Source: Pseudoxanthomonas sp. CF385
Lineage (GTDB): Bacteria > Pseudomonadota > Gammaproteobacteria > Xanthomonadales > Xanthomonadaceae
DNA: 64,000 nt
NCBI RefSeq assembly: GCF_900104255.1
Contig: NZ_FNKZ01000001.1
Coordinates: 1,766,001-1,830,000, forward strand
Reading direction: 5' to 3'
This document shows positions 50,287 to 63,268 of the stretch, one piece after another (within the stretch, counting starts at the first letter, position 1; each line of letters begins with the position of its first letter). The notes beneath the pieces are model-generated. The model worked only from the letters and a program-made list of their open reading frames with translations, had not been told where the DNA came from and did no database searches. A program made the position numbers and the translations under genes.

Positions 50287-51678
50287 TCAGGCGCGCTTCC
50301 AGCGTACGCCCTGCGGCGTGTCTTCCAGCAGGATGCCTTCGGCCGCCAGCTGGTCGCGGATCGCGTCGGAACGGGCGAAGTCGCGCGACTGCTTCGCGGC
50401 GGCGCGCTCGTCGATCAGGCCCTGGATACGGGCATCGTCGTCGCTGGACGTGCCGCGGGCGAACCAGGCGGCGGGATCCTGCTCGAGCAGGCCCAGCACG
50501 CGCCCAGCACCGAGCAGTTCGCCCTTCAGGCGCTCACGGTCCTGCGCCGTCGTCGCCTTGCGGGCGTCGGCGGCGATGCGGGCGATCTCCGCCAACGCCA
50601 GCGGCGTGTTGAGGTCGTCGTCCAGCGCATCCTCGATGGCCTGCGGCGTCTGCGCCGGTGCGGCGACATCACCCAGATCGCGCAGGGTGCCGTACAACCG
50701 GTCCAGCGTGTTCTTCGACTGCTCCACCAGCGCCTCCGACCAGTCCAGCGGCTGCCGGTAGTGCGCGGAGAGCAGGGCGTAACGCAGCGCTTCGGGCGGA
50801 TGTTGCTGAAGGAGATCGTGGACCTTCTCGATGTTGCCCAGCGACTTGCTCATCTTGGCGCCGCCGAAGTTCAGCATGCCGTTGTGCAGCCAGAAGCGGG
50901 CGAAGGTCTTGTGTGAGCCGTCGGCGTGCTTGTGCGCGCATTCGCTCTGCGCCACTTCGTTCTCGTGGTGCGGGAACTGCAGGTCCACGCCACCGGCGTG
51001 GATGTCGATGGTCTCGCCGAGGTGCGCGGCAGCCATCGCCGAGCACTCGATGTGCCAGCCCGGGCGGCCGAGGCCCCAGGGCGAGTCCCAGCCCGGCAGG
51101 TCGGGCGTGGAGGGCTTCCACAGCACGAAGTCGCCGGGATCGCGCTTGTAAGGCGCCACCTCGACGCGGGCACCGGCCAGCATTTCGTCCGGATCGCGGC
51201 GCGAGAGCTTGCCGTACTCGGCGAAGCTGCCCACCGCGAACAGCACGTGGCCTTCGGCGGCATAGGCGTGCCCGCCGGCGATCAGCTGCTCGATCATCGC
51301 GATGATGTGCGGAATGTGGGCGGTCGCGGCCGGTTCGATGTCCGGGGAGAATTCGTCCGTCACGCCCAGCCCGGCCATGTCTTCGCGGTACGCCGCCGCA
51401 TAGCGGTCGGTGATGGCGGAGATCGCCACGCCCAGCTCCTTGGCCGCCGCGTTGATCTTGTCGTCCACGTCCGTGATGTTGCGCGCGTAGCGCAGCCGGC
51501 CGTAGCGCCGCCGCAGGAGGGCGGCCAGCACGCCGAACACCACGGGGCCGCGCGCGTTGCCGATGTGGACGTAGTTGTAGACGGTGGGCCCGCAGACGTA
51601 CATCGTCGGGCAGGCAGGATCGAGCGGCGCGAACGGCTCGACCCGGCGCGTCAGGTTGTTGTGCAGGCGCAGGGTCAT
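50287..51678 (-). CDS. cysS: Cysteinyl-tRNA synthetase
   Basis: Class I aminoacyl-tRNA synthetase of 463 residues charging tRNA-Cys. The N-terminal [20 protein letters not shown] and [20 protein letters not shown] carry the HIGH motif and the zinc-ligand cysteine. Others are [28 protein letters not shown] and the KMSKSLGN loop. The C-terminal tail [20 protein letters not shown] is the expected anticodon-side helix. ATG 51678 is clear and the length matches E. coli CysS (461). Confidence 0.97.
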
Positions 51679-51817
51679 GGGCGTGGGGCAGGGGATACCC
51701 GGTCGATTCTACCGTCTGCGCTCCCTGCGGACACCGGGTCGGTCCGGCGCCCGATGTTCAGCCCCACTCAAGGCGCGATGCCTACACTGTGACACCGGGA
51801 TACCACTTACAGGCCAC

Positions 51818-52318
51818 ATGCACCGCTTCCGCGCCGCCCTTTTCCTGTCCTGCCTGCTGGCCTGCGCCCCGTTGTTGGCGCAGGAGCGGGTGATCCCGAC
51901 GGAGAACGTGCGGCTCGATTACGCCCAGGTGCTCAGCGTGGAGCCGGTGTACCAGACCCTCAGGGCCACCCGCACCGAGCAGCGCTGCGACGAGGTGCCC
52001 GCGGTCAAGCCCGAGCCGGCGACCCGCGAGGAAGAAAGCCGCTGGTCGAAGATGGTCAGTTCGGTGAAAGGCTGGTTCGGGAGTGATGAGGCCTCCGCCC
52101 CGCCAGTGGCGCCGCCGGCCAGCACGGTCCGGACCAATTGCAGGGCCGTGCCGGTGGAACGTGAGTTCCAGCGGCCCATCGCCTACGACGTGGACTACAT
52201 CTACAAGGGCGTGAAGTACCGCTCCCGCCTGGCCGAGGATCCCGGCAACCGCCTGCGGATCCGTGTGTCGGTGGTGCCCTACGTCACCCCGATGCAGCCC
52301 GCCGCCAGCACGCCCTGA
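51818..52318 (+). CDS. Exported protein of unknown function
   Basis: Protein of 166 residues with signal peptide RFRAALFLSCLLACAPLLAQ. The mature part has two cysteines (RCDEVP, TNCRAVP) and a C-terminal strand-rich region YDVDYIYKGVKYRSRLAEDP followed by RLRIRVSVVPYV. This tail resembles the end of glycine-zipper 2TM outer-membrane proteins (the YDVTYxYxG...RLPYDPG type), but the glycine zipper itself is absent, replaced by an acidic/Ser segment with VKGWFGSDEAS. A relict or variant of that family is likely. The ATG at 51818 is chosen for the signal peptide. Confidence 0.72.
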   Translation: MHRFRAALFLSCLLACAPLLAQERVIPTENVRLDYAQVLSVEPVYQTLRATRTEQRCDEVPAVKPEPATREEESRWSKMVSSVKGWFGSDEASAPPVAPPASTVRTNCRAVPVEREFQRPIAYDVDYIYKGVKYRSRLAEDPGNRLRIRVSVVPYVTPMQPAASTP

Positions 52319-52343: not shown

Positions 52344-52372
52344 TTGCGCTGCGCCGCAGCACATGCGAGCAT
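52344..52372 (+). promoter_or_regulatory. Weak promoter candidate before the arg leader
   Basis: TTGCGC (52344-52349) and GAGCAT (52367-52372) are 17 bases apart. The -10 match is poor (3 of 6). If correct, transcription would start next to the leader ATG at 52381, so the leader peptide would be translated from a leaderless message. Confidence 0.3.
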
Positions 52373-52380
52373 TCGCGGCC

Positions 52381-52473
52381 ATGAAGATGAACGCACACGC
52401 CCATGCAGCCAGCGCGGCCTCCCAGGCCTCGAGCATGACGTCGCGTGCCCGTCGACCGGAATCCTGCATCTAG
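52381..52473 (+). CDS. Putative arginine-sensing leader peptide
   Basis: ORF of 30 codons ending in TAG, 106 bases before argF'. It starts MKMNAHAHAASAASQ and contains R-A-R-R at codons 22-25 (CGT, GCC, CGT, CGA; 52444-52455), then P-E-S-C-I and stop. Three Arg codons in four, placed just before competing RNA helices and a terminator, are what an arginine attenuator needs. The stop codon sits exactly at the first base of the antiterminator arm. No clear Shine-Dalgarno is present; a second in-frame ATG is at 52387. Attenuation is an inference, but the geometry is precise. Confidence 0.7.
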   Translation: MKMNAHAHAASAASQASSMTSRARRPESCI

Positions 52474-52515
52474 CTGGGTACCCCGGACGTCGTCGCTTGT
52501 TCACCGGAACCCAGC
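52450..52515 (+). promoter_or_regulatory. Putative attenuator switch (pause and antiterminator helices) before argF'
   Basis: Three segments compete. Region 2 (GCTGGGT at 52473-52479 and CCGG at 52483-52486) can pair with region 3 (CCGG at 52504-52507 and ACCCAGC at 52509-52515), forming an antiterminator. Region 1 (52450-52459, covering the last two Arg codons) can pair with 52483-52492 at 8 of 10 positions. Region 3 is also the 5' arm of the terminator at 52508. A ribosome stalled at the Arg codons would leave region 2 free; one at the stop codon would cover it. Confidence 0.7.
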
Positions 52516-52533
52516 CAGAGGCTGGGTTTTTTC
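52508..52533 (+). terminator. Rho-independent terminator/attenuator upstream of argF'
   Basis: Stem AACCCAGCC / GGCTGGGTT with loop AGA, followed by TTTTC. It lies between the leader ORF and argF', 47 bases before the argF' start. A strong intrinsic terminator directly before a biosynthetic gene, with no complete gene to terminate, points to attenuation. Confidence 0.88.
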
Positions 52534-52579
52534 GTTTCTGACCTCCGCAATGCCACATTCCCGAAACCAGGATGCCGTA

Positions 52580-53584
52580 ATGAAGCACTTCTTGAACACG
52601 CAGGACTGGAGCCGCAGCGAACTGGACGCCTTGCTCACGCAGGCGGCCCTCTACAAGCAGCACAAGCTGGGTGATGCGCTGAAAGGCAAGTCGATCGCGC
52701 TGGTGTTCTTCAATCCTTCGATGCGTACCCGTACCAGCTTCGAGCTGGGCGCGTTCCAACTGGGCGGCCACGCGGTCGTGCTGCAGCCGGGCAAGGACGC
52801 ATGGCCCATCGAGTTCAACCTGGGCACGGTGATGGATGGCGACACCGAGGAGCACATCGCCGAGGTGGCCAAGGTGCTCGGCCGCTACGTGGACCTGATC
52901 GGCGTGCGCGCATTCCCGAAGTTCGTCGACTGGGCCTACGACCGCGAAGACATCGTCCTGAAGTCCTTCGCCAAGTACTCGCCGGTGCCGGTGATCAACA
53001 TGGAGACGATCACCCATCCCTGCCAGGAGCTGGCGCATGCGCTGGCGCTGCAGGAGCACTTCGGCACGTCCGACCTGCGCGGCAAGAAGTACGTGCTCAC
53101 CTGGACCTACCATCCCAAGCCGCTGAACACCGCGGTCGCCAATTCCGCGCTGACCATCGCCACCCGCCTGGGCATGGACGTGACCCTGCTGTGCCCGACC
53201 CCGGACTATGTGCTGGATGAGCGCTACATGGGCTGGGCCGAGCAGAACGTTGCCGAGAGCGGCGGCTCGCTGCGCGTCAGCCACGACATCGAGAGCGCCT
53301 ACCGCGGTGCCGACGTCGTCTACGCCAAGAGCTGGGGCGCCTTGCCGTTCTTCGGCAACTGGGAGCCCGAGAAGCCGATCCGCGACCAGTACAAGCACTT
53401 CATCGTCGACGAAGCCAAGATGGCGCTCACCAACAACGGCGTCTTCAGCCACTGCCTGCCATTGCGCCGCAACGTGAAGGCCACCGACGGCGTGATGGAC
53501 TCGCCGCAGTGCATCGCCATCGACGAAGCCGAGAACCGCCTGCACGTGCAGAAGGCCATCATGGCCGCACTGATGCAGCAGTAA
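52580..53584 (+). CDS. argF': N-acetylornithine carbamoyltransferase
   Basis: Cytoplasmic transcarbamylase of 334 residues that converts N-acetylornithine and carbamoyl phosphate to N-acetylcitrulline, the xanthomonad/Bacteroidetes variant of the arginine pathway. The carbamoyl-phosphate loop is NPSMRTRTSFELGAF; the HPCQELAHAL motif follows, and the late HCLPLRRNVKATDGVMD replaces the HCLP-x-G-x-E form of ordinary OTCases. The lysine in RRNVKATD is the residue known to be carbamylated in the X. campestris enzyme. The start is ATG 52580 (MKHFLNTQDW). It is the first structural gene after the attenuator. Confidence 0.95.
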   Translation: MKHFLNTQDWSRSELDALLTQAALYKQHKLGDALKGKSIALVFFNPSMRTRTSFELGAFQLGGHAVVLQPGKDAWPIEFNLGTVMDGDTEEHIAEVAKVLGRYVDLIGVRAFPKFVDWAYDREDIVLKSFAKYSPVPVINMETITHPCQELAHALALQEHFGTSDLRGKKYVLTWTYHPKPLNTAVANSALTIATRLGMDVTLLCPTPDYVLDERYMGWAEQNVAESGGSLRVSHDIESAYRGADVVYAKSWGALPFFGNWEPEKPIRDQYKHFIVDEAKMALTNNGVFSHCLPLRRNVKATDGVMDSPQCIAIDEAENRLHVQKAIMAALMQQ

Positions 53585-53614
53585 TCCCACCGAACCCGAA
53601 CAGAACGCACCCCC

Positions 53615-54811
53615 ATGAACCAGTCCAAAGACATCGTCCTCGCCTTCTCCGGCGGCCTCGACACCAGCTTCTGCGTACCTTATCTGAAGGAGCGCGGCTG
53701 GAACGTGCACACCGTGTTCGCCGACACCGGCGGCGTGGATGCCGAAGAACGCGCCTACATCGAACAGCGCGCCGCCGACCTGGGCGTGGCCAGCCACGTC
53801 ACCGTCGATGGCGGTCCCGCGATCTGGGACGGCTTCGTCAAGCCGTTCGTGTGGGCGGGCGAGGGCTACCAGGGCCAGTACCCGCTGCTGGTGTCCGACC
53901 GCTACCTGATCGTCGACGCCGCGCTGAAGCGTGCGGCCGAGCTGGGCACGAACGCGATCGCGCACGGTTGCACCGGCATGGGCAACGACCAGGTGCGCTT
54001 CGACCTCGCCGTGAAGGCCAGTGGCGATTACCGCATCGTGGCGCCGATCCGCGAGATCCAGAAGGAACACACGCAGACCCGTGCCTACGAACAGGCCTAC
54101 CTGGAAGAGCGCGGCTTCGGCGTTCGCGCCAAGCAGAAGAGCTACACCATCAACGAGAACCTGCTGGGCCTGACCATGTCCGGCGGCGAGATCGACAAAT
54201 GGGAAGCGCCGGGCGAGGGTGCCCGCGGCTGGTGCGCGCCGCGCGCCGAATGGCCGGTGGAGCCGCTGCGCGTCAAGGTCGGCTTCAAGAACGGCGAAGC
54301 TGTCAGCCTGGACGGGCAGGCCATCGGCGGCGCCGCGCTGCTGGCGAAGTTGAATGCGCTGTTCGCGCCGTACGGCGTGGGCCGCGGCGTATACACGGGC
54401 GACACCGTGATCGGCCTGAAGGGCCGCATCGTGTTCGAGGCGCCCGGCCTGGTGTCGTTGCTGGCCGCGCACCGCGCGCTGGAAGAGACCGTGCTGACCA
54501 AGCAGCAGAACCGCTTCAAGCCCGAGATCGCGCGCAAGTGGGTCGAGCTGGTGTACGAAGGCTTCTACCACGATCCGCTGAAGGCCGACCTGGAGGCGTT
54601 CCTGCAGTCCTCGCAGGCCACCGTCAACGGCGAGGTGGTACTGGAGACCCGCGGTGGCCGCGTCGATGCCGTGGCCGTGACCTCGCCGCACATCCTCAAT
54701 GCCAAGGGCGCGACGTATGCACAGTCCGCCGACTGGGGCGTGGAGGAAGCGGAAGGCTTCATCAAGCTGTTCGGCATGAGCTCGACCCTGTGGGCCGAGA
54801 TCAACCGCTGA
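53615..54811 (+). CDS. argG: Argininosuccinate synthase
   Basis: ATP-dependent enzyme of 398 residues joining citrulline and aspartate. The P-loop-like pyrophosphatase motif is [16 protein letters not shown] at residue 9; [20 protein letters not shown] and [20 protein letters not shown] are conserved. The citrulline/aspartate-site region ([20 protein letters not shown]) is intact. In this pathway citrulline is delivered by the deacetylase two genes downstream. The gap from argF' is 30 bases and 13 bases separate it from the following acetyltransferase. Confidence 0.97.
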
Positions 54812-54824
54812 CCGGAACGCCACG

Positions 54825-55265
54825 ATGAGCGCCCTGCGCATCAGCACGGACAAGGCGGAGCTGGATCTGCCGCTGATCCATCGTTTCCTCTCGACCCAGG
54901 CCTACTGGAGCCAGGGCATCCCCGAGGAGACGGTGGCGCGCGCGGTCGCGGGCTCGCTGTGCTTCGGCGGTTATGTCGAAGGCGTGGGACAGGTGGCGTT
55001 CGCGCGGGTCGTCTCCGACTTCGCGACGTTCGCCTATCTGGCCGACGTGTTCGTGCTGCCGGAGCATCGCGGTCGCGGCTACAGCAAGGCCCTGGTGGCC
55101 GAGGTCATGGCGCACCCGCAGTTGCAGGGGCTGCGCCGTTTCATGCTGGCCACGTCCGATGCGCACGGGTTGTACACGCAGTACGGCTTCGCCACGCCGG
55201 CCAAGCCGCAGACGCTGATGGAAGTGTCCAAGCCGGACATCTACACCGAGGCCAACACCGCATGA
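54825..55265 (+). CDS. GNAT-family acetyltransferase within the arg cluster
   Basis: Protein of 146 residues with the GNAT core: FARVVSDFATFAYLADVFVL, acetyl-CoA loop PEHRGRGYSKALVAEVMAH, and FMLATSDAHGLYTQYGFATP. It is translationally coupled to argE' (ATGA overlap). Its position in all likelihood reflects a role connected to acetylated pathway intermediates or just co-regulation; the substrate is not predictable. True NAGS activity is covered by the fused argB product. A start at 54825 is clear, with a GGAAC Shine-Dalgarno-like segment before it. Confidence 0.9.
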   Translation: MSALRISTDKAELDLPLIHRFLSTQAYWSQGIPEETVARAVAGSLCFGGYVEGVGQVAFARVVSDFATFAYLADVFVLPEHRGRGYSKALVAEVMAHPQLQGLRRFMLATSDAHGLYTQYGFATPAKPQTLMEVSKPDIYTEANTA

Positions 55266-56350
55266 CCTTGCTCGCGACCACGCTCAAGCACCTCGAAGCG
55301 CTGGTGTCGTTCGACACCCGCAACCCGCCGCGCGACATCGGCACCGGCGGCATCTTCGACTATCTGCGCGCCCAATTGCCGGACTTCCAGGTCGAGGTCA
55401 TCGACCATGGCGCCGGCGCGGTGACCCTGTTCGCCGTGCGCGGTCAGCCCCGGCGCGTGTTCAACGTGCATCTGGATACGGTGCCATCTTCGCCCGCGTG
55501 GAGCGCCGATCCGCACACCCTGCGCATCGAGGGCGACCGCGCCATCGGCCTGGGTGCCTGCGACATCAAGGGTGCGGCGGCGGCGCTGGTGGCCGCGGCG
55601 CAGGTGACCCAGGGCGATGCGGCGTTCCTGTTCACGACCGACGAGGAGGCGAACGACGCGCGCTGCATTGCCGCCTTCCTCGCCCGCGACCATGGCTTCA
55701 GCGAAGCGATCATCGCCGAGCCGACCCAGTGCCAGGCGGTGCTCGCGCATCGTGGCATCAGCGCCGTCCGCATGGCGTTCAAGGGCCAGGCCGGGCACGC
55801 GTCCGCCGAGAACGCCCTCACGCTCAGCGCGCTGCACAACGCGATGCGCTGGGGCACGTCAGCGCTGGATTTCGTCCAGGCCCAGCACCACCTGCGTTTC
55901 GGCGGACTGACCGGCCTGCGCTTCAACATCGGCCGGGTGGAAGGCGGCATCAAGGCGAACATGATCGCGCCCAGCGCGGAAGTCCGCTTCGGTTTCCGTC
56001 CGCTGCCCTCGCAGGATCCCGCCGAACTGCACGCCACGTTCCACGGCTTCGCCAACACCGATGCGCTGGCCGAGTACGAAGAGACCTTCCGCGGCCCTTC
56101 GTTGCCGTCCGGTGACGTCGCCCGCGCCGAAGAGCGTCGGCTGGCTGCGCGCGACCTGGCCGACGAACTCGGCCTGCCGATCGGCAATGCCGTCGACTTC
56201 TGGACCGAGGCGTCGCTGTTCTCCGCCGCCGGGCTGACCGCCTTCGTCTACGGCCCCGGCGACATCGCCCAGGCGCACACCGCCGATGAGTGGGTCGCCC
56301 TGGACCAACTTAAGCGGTACGCCGAGAGCGTCGCCCGCATCCTCGCCTGA
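55262..56350 (+). CDS. argE': N-acetylcitrulline deacetylase (ArgE-like)
   Basis: M20-family zinc peptidase of 362 residues that removes the acetyl group of N-acetylcitrulline to give citrulline. Metal ligands are in [30 protein letters not shown] and [18 protein letters not shown]; the dimerisation insert begins near [18 protein letters not shown]. The ArgE family normally hydrolyses N-acetylornithine; context (argF' encodes the acetylornithine carbamoyltransferase) decides the citrulline substrate. The start overlaps the previous gene stop (ATGA), and 34 bases separate it from argB. Confidence 0.93.
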
Positions 56351-56384
56351 TCCACGTACCCCGAACACGCATCGAAACGACACG

Positions 56385-57704
56385 ATGGAATCCAACAAGC
56401 AAACCCGTCAGACCATCATCCGTCTGCTGTCCAGCATGGCCAGCGCGAAGGAGATATCGCAGTACGTCAAGCGTTTCTCCCAGCTGGACGCCAAGCGCTT
56501 CGCCGTGGTCAAGGTCGGCGGTGCGGTGCTGCGCGACGATCTCGATGCGCTGACGTCCTCGCTGACGTTCCTGCAGGAAGTCGGCCTGACACCGATCGTC
56601 GTGCACGGTGCAGGACCGCAGCTGGACGAAGAGATGACCGCCGCGGGCATCACCAAGCAGACCGTCAACGGCCTGCGCGTGACGACGCCCGAAGTGCTGG
56701 CCATCGTGCGCAAGGTGTTCCTGCAACAGAACCTCGCCTTGGTCGAGGCATTGCAGCAGGTGGGTGCGCGCGCGACCTCGATCGTGTCCGGCGTGTTCGA
56801 GGCCGAGTTCAAGGACCAGGCCACCTACGGACTGGTAGGCGACGTCACCCGGATCAACCAGGCGCCGATCGAGGCCAGCCTGAAGGCGGGTTCCATTCCG
56901 GTGATCGCCAGCATGGGCGAAACCGTGGGCGGGCAGATCCTCAACATCAACGCCGACTTCGCCGCCAACGAGCTGGTGCAGGTCCTGCAGCCGTACAAGA
57001 TCATCTTCCTCACCGGTACCGGCGGCCTGCTGGACGCGGAAGGACGCGTGCTCGATTCGATCAACCTGTCGACCGAGTACGACGAGCTGATGGCGCAGCC
57101 GTGGATCAATGGCGGCATGCGGGTGAAGATCGAGCAGATCAAGGATCTGCTGGACCGGCTGCCGCTGACCTCCTCGGTGTCCATCACCAAGCCGGCGGAA
57201 CTGGCCAAGGAGCTGTTCACGCACCGCGGTTCCGGCACGCTCGTGCGCAAGGGTGAACGCGTACTGCGCTTCGAAGGTGGTTGGGAAGGCGTGGACCTGC
57301 CGCGACTGAAGACGCTGATCGAATCCAGCTTCGGCCGCACGCTGTTGCCGGACTATTTCGAGCGCACCACGCCATACCGCGTCTACATCAGCGAGAACTA
57401 CCGCACCGCCCTGATCCTCACGCAGGAGGAAGGGTTCGCCTATCTGGACAAGTTTGCCGTACTCGACGACGCGCAGGGCGAGGGCCTCGGCCGCGCCGTG
57501 TGGCATGTGATGCGCGAAGAGAATCCGCAGCTGTTCTGGCGTTCGCGCCACAACAACCAGGTCAACATCTTCTACTACGCCGAGTCCGACGGCTGCTACA
57601 AGCAGGAGAAGTGGAAGGTGTTCTGGTACGGCATCGAGGATTTCGCCGACATCGAACGCTGCGTCGCGCACTGCCGCACGCGCCTGCCCACGTTGAAGGA
57701 CTGA
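56385..57704 (+). CDS. argB: Bifunctional N-acetylglutamate synthase/kinase
   Basis: Fusion of 439 residues catalysing the first two steps of arginine synthesis. The amino-acid kinase domain covers about 20-280: [60 protein letters not shown]. The last about 150 residues are a vertebrate-type NAT domain: [40 protein letters not shown] and [20 protein letters not shown]. This NAGS-K architecture is known from xanthomonads and is usually inhibited by arginine. The start is ATG 56385 ([10 protein letters not shown]). It ends one base before the next gene begins. Confidence 0.96.
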
Positions 57705-57705
57705 C

Positions 57706-58322
57706 ATGGCCGCCGCACTCCCCACTGCCTGGCAGCAGGTACCGGTCCTGACGGGGCGTCATGCGCGCCTCGAACCGATGTCGTCCGACCATGTCGAGGG
57801 CCTGCGCGCCGCCTTGGCGGGCGATGAACTGGCTGCGCTGTGGTTCACGCAGGTGCCGAAGGCCGCCGATGCGGCGGACTACGTGGACGCGGTGCTGGCG
57901 GCGCAGGCCGACGGCCGCGTGCTGCCGTTCGTGGTGCGGGATGCCGCTGGCCGTGTCGTCGGCAGTACCCGGTTCTACGGGCTGGAAGCGGACGTGCCCA
58001 AGCTCAGCATCGGTTACACCTGGTACGCGCCCAACGTGCAGCGCACCGGCATCAATACCGAGACCAAGCTGTTGTTGCTTACGCATGCGTTCGAGACGCT
58101 GGGCTGCATCAGCGTGGTGTTCGAGACCAGCTGGTTCAACTACCGCTCGCGCGCGGCGATCGCCCGGCTCGGGGCGAAGCAGGACGGTGTGCTGCGCAAC
58201 CACAAACGCCATACCGACGGCTCGCCGCGCGACACCGTCGTCTTCTCTATCATCGACGGCGAGTGGCCGGCGGTGAAACGCAACCTGCTGGCGAAGCTCG
58301 CCCGGCACGATCAGGACGTCCC

Positions 58323-58326
<4 letters not shown>
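57706..58326 (+). CDS. GNAT-family acetyltransferase (RimJ/RimL-like)
   Basis: Protein of 206 residues, longer than the first GNAT in the cluster and of a different subfamily. It begins with a RimJ/RimL-type segment ([20 protein letters not shown]), followed by [20 protein letters not shown], then [20 protein letters not shown] and [20 protein letters not shown]. Coupled to argC by a four-base overlap. The substrate is unknown: protein or small-amine acetylation are both possible. No obvious requirement for arginine synthesis is known, so its place in the operon is unexplained. Confidence 0.9.
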
Positions 58327-59281
<955 letters not shown>

Positions 59282-59285
<4 letters not shown>

Positions 59286-60574
59286 GCGACCTGTTGTGGC
59301 AGAAGCCGGGCGTAGCAGTGGACGCGGAGATCCAGCGTTTCCTGGCCGGCGACGACGTGGTGCTGGACCGCGAGTTCTTCCTGCACGACATCCAGGCCAG
59401 CACCGCGCACGCGGAAGGCCTGCAGCGCATCGGCATCCTCTCGGGCGACGAGCTGGCCGGCCTGAAGCGCGAACTGGCGGTGCTGGCGGACGACTTCCGT
59501 CGCGGCGATTTCGTCCTGGACGAGCGCTTCGAAGACGGGCACTCGGCCATCGAGGCGCGCCTGACCGAGCGCCTGGGCGATGCCGGGCGCAAGATCCACA
59601 CCGGGCGCAGCCGGAACGACCAGATCCTCGTCGCCACCCGGTTGTGGCTGAAGGAGAAGCTCGCGCGCGTGGCCGTGCTGTCGCGCGAAGTGGCCAAGGT
59701 CGCGCTGGACCGTGCGCTCGCCGAACGCGATCTGCCGATTCCCGGCTACACGCACATCCAGCGCGCCGTGGTGTCGTCCGCCGGCATGTGGTGGGCGGGC
59801 TGGGCGGAAGCCTTCATCGACAACACGGTGCGCGCCCGCGATACGCTGAAACTGGTGGACGCCAATCCATTGGGCACGGCCGCCGGCTACGGCGTCAACC
59901 TCAAGCTGGACCGCGAACACACGACCGCGGCACTCGGTTTCTCGCGCATGCAGGTCAGCCCGATCTATGCGCAGCTCTCGCGGGGCAAGTTCGAACTGGC
60001 TGCACTCGAAGCGCTCGGTGGCGCGACCCTGGACCTGCGCCGCATCGCCTGGGACCTGTCGCTGTTCACCAGCGCGGAATTCGGTTTCGTCGCGTTGCCC
60101 GCTCAGTACACCACGGGCAGTTCCATCATGCCGAACAAGCGCAATCCCGACGTCATCGAGCTGATGCGCGCCACCCACGCCAGCGTCGCGGCTGCGCGGA
60201 TGGAGATCGAACAGCTGCTGTCGCTGCCGTCCGGCTACCACCGCGACCTGCAGGCCAGCAAGGGCGCGATCTTTCATGGTTTCGGCCGCGGCTTGCCGGC
60301 GCTCGAACTGCTGCCCGCGCTGCTGGCGAACCTGGAGTGGCGCGAAGACCGCCTGCGTGCGGCGATCGATTCGGGCATGTACGCCACCGACGTGGCCGTG
60401 GAAGCGGCCGTGGCCGGCGTGCCGTTCCGCGAGGCCTACAAGGCCGCGGCGGCATCCGCGGACAGCGCGGGGCAGGGCCGCACGCCCGAGGGCAGCCTGG
60501 CGGCGCGGGTGTCGCCGGGTGCCGGTGCCGACCTCCGCCTGGATGCACTGGCGGCGCGCTGGAATGCGCTATGA
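59282..60574 (+). CDS. argH: Argininosuccinate lyase
   Basis: Final enzyme of arginine synthesis, cleaving argininosuccinate to arginine and fumarate; a cytoplasmic tetramer of 430-residue subunits. The fumarase-superfamily signature is [20 protein letters not shown] (GSSxMPxKxNP) near 280; others are [38 protein letters not shown] and [18 protein letters not shown]. It is somewhat shorter than E. coli ArgH (457). Its start and stop both overlap neighbours by four bases. Confidence 0.96.
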
Positions 60575-60828
60575 GGCGCTACCTCGTCATGGCGATGCGT
60601 CGACCCACGTTCGACGAGGGCGTGGTCGCCCCGCACCTGGCGTTCCTCGACGAACTGCGTGCCAGCGGACACCTGGAGATGACCGGGGGTTTCAGCGACA
60701 AGACCGGCGGCGCCTACGTGCTCGTCAACGTCGACTCGCTGGAGCAGGCCCGTGCGATCGCGGCACGCGATCCCCTCGCGACCCAGGGCACGTCCGACCT
60801 CACCGTCTACGAATGGAACACACGCTGA
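60571..60828 (+). CDS. YciI-family protein
   Basis: Protein of 85 residues with the ferredoxin-like YciI/DGPF fold: [60 protein letters not shown] and the end [11 protein letters not shown] conserved His/Asp pair (HLAFLDEL) is retained. Function is unknown; YciI proteins have been proposed as small hydrolases or oxygenase partners. Coupled to argH by ATGA overlap, and followed ten bases later by proB. Confidence 0.88.
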
Positions 60829-60837
60829 GCTGATCCC

Positions 60838-61986
60838 ATGACCCACGCCGCGCCGCTCCCGTTCGAAGAACAACCGCTGCCGGCGTGGCGCCGCGCCGTG
60901 CTGAAGGTCGGCAGCAGCCTGCTGGCGGGCGGCGATGAGGGACTGACGCCGCGCCACGCACTGAGCCTGGCGCAGTTCGTCTCTTCCAGCATTGCGGCAG
61001 GCAAGGAAGTGGTGATCGTCTCGTCCGGCGCAGTCGCGGCCGGACGTGGCCTGCTGCACCGTAAGCCGCAGGCAGGCGCGGCCATGGCCGAACGCCAGGC
61101 GCTGGCGGCGCTGGGCCAGGCCCAATTGATCGCGCTGTGGCAGCGTTTCTTCGATCGACCGGTCGCGCAGGTGCTGTTGACCCATGACGACCTGCGCAAC
61201 CGCCGGCGCTACCTCAATGCGCGCGCGACCCTGCAGGAACTGCTGTCGCTCGGCGCGCTGCCGGTGGTGAACGAGAACGACACGGTCTCGGTCGACGAAC
61301 TCAAGCTCGGCGACAACGACAACCTCGCGGCCGTCGTCGCCGCGCTGATCGACGCCGATGCGTTGTTCATCGCTACCGACATCGATGGCTTCTACACCGC
61401 CAACCCGCGCACGCATGCCGATGCGCAGCCGATCCTGGACGTCGAAGCGCTGACGCCCGCGTTTTACGCGATGGCCGGCGGCGCGGGCAGCGGCGTCGGC
61501 ACCGGTGGCATGCATACCAAGCTGGAGGCCGCGGCCAAGGCGGCCGCGGCGGGCATCGAGACCTTCCTGTTCAACGGTACCCGCGCAGGCACGGTGTCGG
61601 CGCTCGCCCACGGGGGCCTCGTTGGCACGCGATTCCGGCCGGCGCAGAACCGCCTCGCCGCACGCAAGTACTGGTTGCGCAACGTGCCGGTAGAGGCGGG
61701 CGCGATCATCGTCGACACCGGCGCCGCTGGCGCGATGGCGGGGAAGGGCGCGTCCTTGCTGCCGGGTGGCGTGACCACCGCCGAAGGCGATTTCCGCCGC
61801 GGCGACATGGTCGAGGTGGTGCTGCGCGATGGCGAGGGTGATCGCACGGTGGCGCGCGGCGTGAGCCAGTACTCGGCAGTGGACATCCGCCGCATCGCGC
61901 GCCGCCACTCGCGCGACATCGAAGGCATCCTCGGTTATACCTACGGCGAGAACGTCGTGCATCGCGACGATCTGGTCCTTCTCTGA
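60838..61986 (+). CDS. proB: Glutamate 5-kinase
   Basis: ATP-dependent kinase of 382 residues for the first step of proline synthesis. The amino-acid kinase domain has [60 protein letters not shown] and [22 protein letters not shown]-terminal PUA domain (about 285-380) is present: [20 protein letters not shown] and the end [17 protein letters not shown]. Proline feedback is known for the family. Following the arg genes without a gap, it could be carried on the same transcript. Confidence 0.96.
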
Positions 61987-62005
61987 CGCCTCCCCCGGAG
62001 TCCGC

Positions 62006-63268
<1,263 letters not shown>

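Follow-up and report, generated by a model that had tools for sequence, protein, structure and literature searches.

A probable arginine-specific transcription attenuator with a conserved leader peptide core before the arginine-proline cluster of Pseudoxanthomonas sp. CF385 and its relatives

The short leader upstream of argF' in Pseudoxanthomonas sp. CF385 is very probably a ribosome-mediated, arginine-specific transcription attenuator standing before the whole arginine (and proline) cluster. The evidence lies in the sequence of the 64,000-nt stretch of DNA that was analysed (the window) and of its relatives, namely the leader and its codons, two mutually exclusive and covarying hairpins, the spacing of their arms, the distribution among relatives and the lack of PF01316 (ArgR) matches in searches of the window's family. 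The original prediction had described a 30-codon ORF with three Arg codons at 52444-52455, the segments GCTGGGT, ACCCAGC and GCTGGGT and a U-run, all of whose coordinates were confirmed on re-reading (Table 1), and its interpretation of the element as an arginine-type attenuator and a member of the amino-acid leader class is supported. Beyond that prediction, we found that a core peptide is conserved, that distant families have another type of leader and that a promoter-like pair lies near the leader ATG.

Table 1. Positions of the leader, its hairpins and the downstream genes in the window
Feature	Positions	Strand	Basis
-35-like hexamer TTGCGC	52344..52349	+	read from sequence
-10-like hexamer GAGCAT, 17 nt 3' of the -35-like hexamer	52367..52372	+	read from sequence
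Leader ORF MKMNAHAHAASAASQASSMTSRARRPESCI and stop TAG, 30 codons	52381..52473	+	read from sequence
Core codons MTSRARR, peptide-level constraint	52435..52455	+	pN/pS 0.007, 59 distinct argF'-selected sequences
Control codons CGT GCC CGT CGA (Arg Ala Arg Arg)	52444..52455	+	read from sequence
Possible 1:2 (anti-antiterminator) hairpin, 52456-52464 with 52476-52486, overlapping the antiterminator arm	52456..52486	+	fold; weak
Antiterminator 5' arm GCTGGGT, pairing with 52509-52515 and sharing one base with the leader stop codon	52473..52479	+	covariation, spacing
Terminator 5' arm, containing ACCCAGC (52509-52515) common to the antiterminator	52506..52516	+	terminator scan, covariation, folding
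Terminator 3' arm GGCTGGGTTTT, with the second GCTGGGT at 52521-52527	52520..52530	+	terminator scan, covariation, folding
T-run of the intrinsic terminator, six T	52527..52532	+	read from sequence
argF', N-acetylornithine carbamoyltransferase, first in the cluster presumed to be controlled	52580..53584	+	NF003384 equivalog, 640 bits, cut-off 288
argG, GNAT-like, argE', argB, GNAT-like, argC, argH, small ORF, proB, proA	53615..63268	+	NCBIfam matches: argG, argE, argB, argC, argH, proB, proA

The cluster comprises ten genes (52580 to 63268), with argininosuccinate synthase, acetylornithine deacetylase and acetylglutamate kinase among their products, and gene order and spacing suggest that they are co-transcribed. 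The start codon of argF' was corrected to the ATG at 52580; the gene is 99% identical to the copy of P. mexicana, the closest named locus among the best 80 of 581. The argF' reading frame is open backwards through the terminator to a GTG at 52445, and automatic annotation could stretch argF' over the attenuator (52445-52580). Neither of the two GNAT-like proteins has an NCBIfam match, and their names are our own reading. The small ORF between argH and proB (60571-60828) presumably resembles YCII-type proteins. On the other side, the leader is preceded by an ORF (51584-52318) with the motif YDVDYIYKG..YRSRL..DPGNRLRIRVSVVPYV, which has counterparts at the same place in loci L154, L155, L158 and L164.

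The promoter-like pair is located between the end of this preceding ORF and the leader, which begins 8 nt after the -10-like hexamer. The pattern TTGC, 16-18 nt, NANNAT and a start codon 6-12 nt further on is present in 81/81 rows (the window and the best 80 of 581 loci) against a mean of 0.0 in mono-nucleotide shuffles, the pattern having been derived from the same related rows on which it was counted. A sigma-70 consensus scan called no promoter at the leader. If the pair is used, the transcript would start about 1-3 nt before the leader ATG and the leader mRNA would be near-leaderless. In family f12 (probably Rhodanobacteraceae), the start codon lies further downstream of the promoter-like pair than in the window's family, where leaderless translation of the leader is possible (window 52344-52381). 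The conservation of frame and the substitution pattern suggest that the leader ORF is translated. An open in-frame ATG or GTG is found 16-22 codons 5' of the core ATG in all 143 distinct relatives (151 sequences before identical ones were removed); ATG alone, 15-22 codons 5' of the core, is found in 137 of them, compared with 27 and 2 in the other two frames. With this upstream start and with Ala-12 and Ala-9 (numbered from the last control Arg as 0) invariant despite synonymous variation, a leader of 12 residues that begins at the core ATG (52435) is unlikely.

Both hairpins of the proposed switch are stable when folded alone, the terminator of the window reaching -17.1 kcal/mol (z = -4.1) and the antiterminator -18.8 kcal/mol (z = -2.1). 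Among 51 representatives, an intrinsic terminator between the ORF and argF' has a mean z of -4.51, with z below -1 in 51/51. The arms of the antiterminator region are paired in 51/51 folds, with a mean z of -2.48 and z below -1 in 48/51, on a region whose ends were picked by complementarity, which favours paired arms. When up to 3 mismatches are allowed, the terminator with its T-run has a single occurrence in the window and appears in 0/100 shuffles. A generic terminator scan over 2 kb performed at chance (1 found vs. 1.1 expected), and the full 160 nt fold with only modest stability (z = -1.42, 14/200 shuffles equally good).

The original prediction also held that antiterminator and terminator exclude each other, which is borne out by the shared ACCCAGC arm and by covariation of both hairpins. 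In an arm alignment of 51 representatives (at most 86% alike), the matched seven-base triplets are GCCGGGT/ACCCGGC/GCCGGGT in 16 rows, GCTGGGT/GCCCAGC/GCTGGGC in 8 and GCTGGGT/ACCCAGC/GCTGGGT in 7, the remainder being minor types. The antiterminator has 94.5% of its cells paired and a covariation score of 0.200 vs. 0.153 (reached by 0/500 shuffles), and the terminator 99.3% and 0.245 vs. 0.127 (0/500); both scores exceed every slid version, and kinship among sequences can itself push covariation above such shuffles. Pairs changed on both sides number just 2 in the antiterminator (402/500 shuffles reach this) and 3 in the terminator (21/500), and the number of pair types lies within that of shuffles (433/500 and 500/500, respectively), so that the covariation is carried by few columns. 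Two slid versions of the antiterminator carry 3 pairs changed on both sides. These results point to mutually exclusive and covarying hairpins, on few changing columns. Taken singly, the antiterminator arm beats 95% of shuffles in 101/140 distinct regions and does not in the other 39; the 140 regions exclude L050, L155, L167, L172 and L157, and include L174 though its site was misplaced. Misfits are L154 and L158, with an A-C mismatch in the antiterminator, and L166, which has no convincing arm.

The spacing between control codons and arm is nearly constant. The arm begins 17-18 nt 3' of the last Arg codon in 117 of the 133 distinct core-type sequences, and the leader stop codon follows that codon by 3 to 27 nt (1 to 9 codons). 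With the last Arg codon in the A site, the ribosome footprint extends roughly 13-15 nt onward, counted from the codon's first base, and because the arm is 17-18 nt away it would be free during a pause there. A ribosome at the stop codon would cover the arm in most lineages. The geometry agrees with an operon that is released when arginine runs short. From these features we infer how the ribosome would pause, in which direction the element would respond, where the transcript would start and what part the nascent chain may play. RNA polymerase would start about at the leader's own ATG, followed by a ribosome. When Arg-tRNA is short, the ribosome would pause on CGN-GCN-CGN-CGA with its front edge just short of the GCTGGGT arm, which would then be free to pair with ACCCAGC; the terminator would not form and transcription would continue into argF' and onward. 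When Arg-tRNA is plentiful, the ribosome would run on to the stop codon, which overlaps the arm or directly precedes it, and would cover the arm; the terminator would form, and transcription would end near 52532. In families of the Xanthomonadaceae type, the pause is probably strengthened or tuned by the nascent chain that is synthesised just ahead of the Arg codons and on them.

Classical attenuators have in addition a 1:2 helix that holds the arm closed after ribosome release. The 1:2 pairing originally proposed, with the Arg codons themselves, was not recovered: the window folds instead with 52456-52464 against 52476-52486, at -12.1 kcal/mol and no better than shuffles (z = -0.04), and over the 51 representatives the stability of the 1:2 region equals that of shuffles (mean z = -0.27). 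This speaks against the attenuator, as does the presence of only three Arg codons, where most textbook leaders carry more than three control codons; the conserved non-Arg residues described below are not predicted by pure codon sensing.

Both the Arg codons and the paired segments named in the original prediction proved to be conserved. Among loci fetched by argF' alone (best 80 of 581), 80/80 have TSRARRP in the upstream ORF and keep the three Arg codons; the paired segments covary among the 51 representatives. The leader is also present in 11/11 further chosen genomes of the window's own family (f1), f2, f3 and f12, in one locus (L157) only further upstream, with small changes: the core reads MASRARRP, or MTSRARR with L, R, N, C or T as the next residue. 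A search of the order with the core pattern found matches in 157/299 genomes, by hand count 75/79 in f1, 74/75 in f12, 2/3 in f2 and 3/10 in f3. It missed nine of the 11 further genomes, and of the remaining two, G022 had a stray match only and G003 was outside the search. One of the 75 matches in f1, that of G022, is not at argF'. Three matches in f7/f9 are apparently spurious, one (G045) being on another contig than argF' and the other two judged by codons only. In 70/70 pattern loci fetched (L083-L152), argF' lies 127-311 nt 3' of the core and on its strand; these loci were picked by a pattern that contains the core, and the argF'-selected loci alone are free of that bias. In the class, the strict pattern was found in 5/369 genomes, all five in this order (0/364 outside). 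One record titled Bacillus subtilis SK7B5 (L058, JAHREJ010000037.1) has a Stenotrophomonas-like argF' and leader and is probably mislabelled or contaminated.

More distant families of the order have a different leader. The argF' loci of 30 chosen genomes include 11 of f1, f12, f2 and f3, 11 of f4-f9 and five of f11, together with three f8 genomes without a close argF'. In f4-f9, 9/11 loci have a leader that resembles the core type in its Arg-codon run only (RRRR, RRRRR, RRARRTRRP, RRLRRPR, RRRSRRP or RRRP), mostly followed by an arm of the GGCTGGGT type and a terminator. The Arg density of these nine leaders is matched by 10, 1, 9, 0, 11, 3, 7, 8 and 54 of 300 same-DNA shuffles, the ninth not being significant alone. 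In the other two loci (L164 and L171), whose genomes gave no PF01316 match, no leader was found within 400 nt, and none was found at the five f11 argF' loci. At L167, the Arg-rich stretch of the leader, without the terminator, is in a tandem duplicate with one N between the copies, by duplication or an assembly fault.

The original prediction named ArgR as the regulator of most arginine genes in studied gamma-proteobacteria. All five f11 genomes searched carry a PF01316 match, about 1.2 kb from argF, and these five are the only matches among 46 genomes of the order (0/41 outside f11); in the window's family, profile searches gave 0/40, the window's own genome included. The same searches matched named controls in 9/14, both times. 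Control of the cluster by a PF01316 ArgR was rejected, the repressor not having been found in the 40 family genomes. Pseudomonas has arginine regulators of the AraC type. A T-box or other Rfam leader was likewise rejected, as only two tRNAs reach the gathering score in the window, and so was the speF-leader peptide (DUF2618, PF10940), as three leader peptides matched 0 Pfam families up to E 1.

The leader peptide itself appears to be under strong constraint around the control codons. Among 59 distinct argF'-selected sequences (81 before identical ones were removed), pN/pS is 0.007 for MTSRARR and 0.010 when only its M, T, S and A are counted, compared with 0.17 for argF' (60 codons). It rises to 0.42 in the seven codons before the core, 0.91 in the nine before those and 1.38 in the three after the following Pro, the N- and C-terminal values being computed at fixed offsets on ungapped sequences, a procedure that raises pN. 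In 123 distinct sequences (161 before identical ones were removed), Ala-12, Ala-9 and Ala-2 occur in 123/123 and Thr-5 in 122/123, each with three or four codons used. Ser-4 is TCG and the last control Arg is CGA in 120/123 each, although CGA is rare in the ten cluster genes (6/244 Arg codons); because the third base is nearly fixed at these two sites, a constraint at the RNA or codon level is added there. Pro follows the core in 114/123 sequences, with Leu, Arg, Asn, Cys or another residue in the others, and proline sensing was rejected on account of this variation.

Since the conserved stretch is of about tunnel length and ends at the control codons, the nascent chain is implicated, and these results suggest that it matters for leader function beyond codon sensing; peptide-level conservation, an arrest-peptide criterion, is present beside the presumed stall site. 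The same genomes yielded no leader of another amino acid for comparison: among 40 family genomes, Rfam Thr_leader matched in 15, none over the cut-off, and His_leader in 0. At 28 hisG loci (30 genomes), no upstream ORF has four close His codons, and under looser criteria two loci yielded three short ORFs that have three His within eight codons, not leader-like by eye. These hisG loci (L207-L234; own copy G000:C1:1841383-1841949) have no His-run leader ORF upstream.

We consider as a serious possibility, falling just short of even probability, that nascent chain and Arg codons act jointly, the core slowing the ribosome to the point where only three control codons would suffice for a long pause when Arg-tRNA is modestly short. 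This would extend the attenuator and is consistent with the peptide-level constraint at and before the control codons and with the near-invariant rare CGA in last place. Because the distance from core to stop varies from 1 to 9 codons, the core would come to a fixed place in the tunnel only with the ribosome on the Arg codons. A constraint on codon pairs or RNA at TCG and CGA, however, is inseparable from such a role with the third base nearly fixed, and the lack of a comparison leader in the same genomes also counts against it. Joint action is favoured over a sensor of free arginine of the fungal type, because a pause on Arg codons at a biosynthetic cluster must mean shortage. Such a sensor, in which the leader would be an arrest peptide responding to free arginine in the exit tunnel with tRNA charging of minor importance, is unlikely, even though the constraint spans residues -12 to 0, roughly as long as the upper tunnel, with Ala-12, Ala-9, Ala-2 and Thr-5 conserved and the non-Arg codons of the core at such low pN/pS. 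Distant families keep Arg runs without the core, the position of the stop codon is unconstrained here, unlike in fungal-type arrest at the stop, and a stall on Arg codons at high arginine would free the arm, which is the wrong sign for a biosynthetic cluster.

The peptide-level constraint could also reflect a peptide that acts in trans after release, its conservation unrelated to attenuation, as described for the S. meliloti trp leader peptide peTrpL (PMC7298713). We regard this as very unlikely: a free functional peptide would not be expected to have an N-terminus and a C-terminus that look unconstrained (0.91 and 1.38), and the core sits exactly at the control codons. That an ordinary terminator of the upstream gene, plausible there since that gene ends at 52318 and consistent with the generic scan at chance, merely follows a chance ORF with no regulation is rejected as scarcely credible, given the promoter-like pair in 81/81 rows, the covarying antiterminator and the conservation of frame and peptide.

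Ribosome-mediated leaders in proteobacteria are known for his, trp, thr, ilv, leu and phe. The window element is like them in having an ORF with codons for the product of the pathway, a choice between antiterminator and terminator, an intrinsic terminator and a position before the pathway's first gene. It differs from them in the amino acid, arginine, in having three control codons in the core clade and a weak or absent 1:2 helix, in matching no Rfam leader (such as His_leader or Thr_leader) at the gathering score and perhaps in its strongly conserved peptide core. The fungal arginine attenuator peptide stalls at high arginine, at the stop codon. This peptide, encoded by the CPA1/arg-2 uORF, is likewise a short leader peptide with conserved residues that is described as tuning arginine biosynthesis (PMC9648851). 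It belongs to eukaryotic translation control, whereas the window element would act on transcription, with the opposite predicted condition for pausing. T-boxes bind tRNA directly, without a leader peptide. Arginine T-box leaders share with the window element the control of arginine genes at the RNA level (PMC1262725), and no T-box match was found in the window. The carAB leader of P. aeruginosa also encodes a leader peptide and may attenuate an arginine/pyrimidine gene; that attenuation is ascribed to pyrimidines, and arginine acts at the transcriptional level (PMC4997734). Among bacteria, the closest earlier case of leader Arg codons is orf34 upstream of speF in Salmonella, a conserved leader peptide in which two consecutive Arg codons are described as reading arginine supply through ribosome pausing; it controls ornithine decarboxylase (polyamine synthesis) via Rho, occlusion of the ribosome-binding site and translation, and RNase G and mRNA decay (PMC6386406). 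The window element, by comparison, is concerned with arginine synthesis and has an intrinsic terminator.

A 2004 survey of attenuation in proteobacteria is not known to include an arginine example. Among the matches listed in the open-licence literature, no arginine-biosynthetic attenuator in proteobacteria was found, and the words arginine and argF are absent from the main text of a premature-terminator survey (PMC2965389). The available parts of a study of Actinobacteria give no arginine element there and cite T-boxes for arginine elsewhere (PMC1262725), those of a regulon survey handle arginine via ArgR (PMC5343134), and those of a 2021 motif survey give a carA motif and, upstream of cysS, a leader with cysteine codons, and no arginine-codon leader (PMC8632094). 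The suggestion that attenuation by Arg codons would be new is narrowed: it stands for arginine synthesis, for which none was found in these texts, and not for leader Arg codons as such, of which Salmonella orf34 uses two (PMC6386406). It is likely that an arginine-biosynthetic attenuator has not been reported before.

Taken over the order, a tentative history, which we hold somewhat less than evenly probable, is that control by ArgR was replaced by leaders with Arg runs, and that one large clade (including Xanthomonas, Stenotrophomonas and Lysobacter) shortened the run to RARR and fixed a tunnel peptide, A..A.GMTSRARR, that would hold the ribosome on the rare CGA, codon supply and nascent chain jointly sensing arginine. 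The leader would be a specific answer to arginine control in a large order where ArgR was found only in f11, and among the genomes examined the two control devices are mutually exclusive, with ArgR in f11 and the leader elsewhere. Through this leader, arginine would join the amino acids that are read by ribosome-mediated attenuation, and the constraint on its peptide may make the leader more than another amino-acid leader. The leaders form a natural series, with long Arg runs at one end and a short run with a conserved peptide at the other, along which the contributions of codon supply and nascent chain to pausing could be measured.
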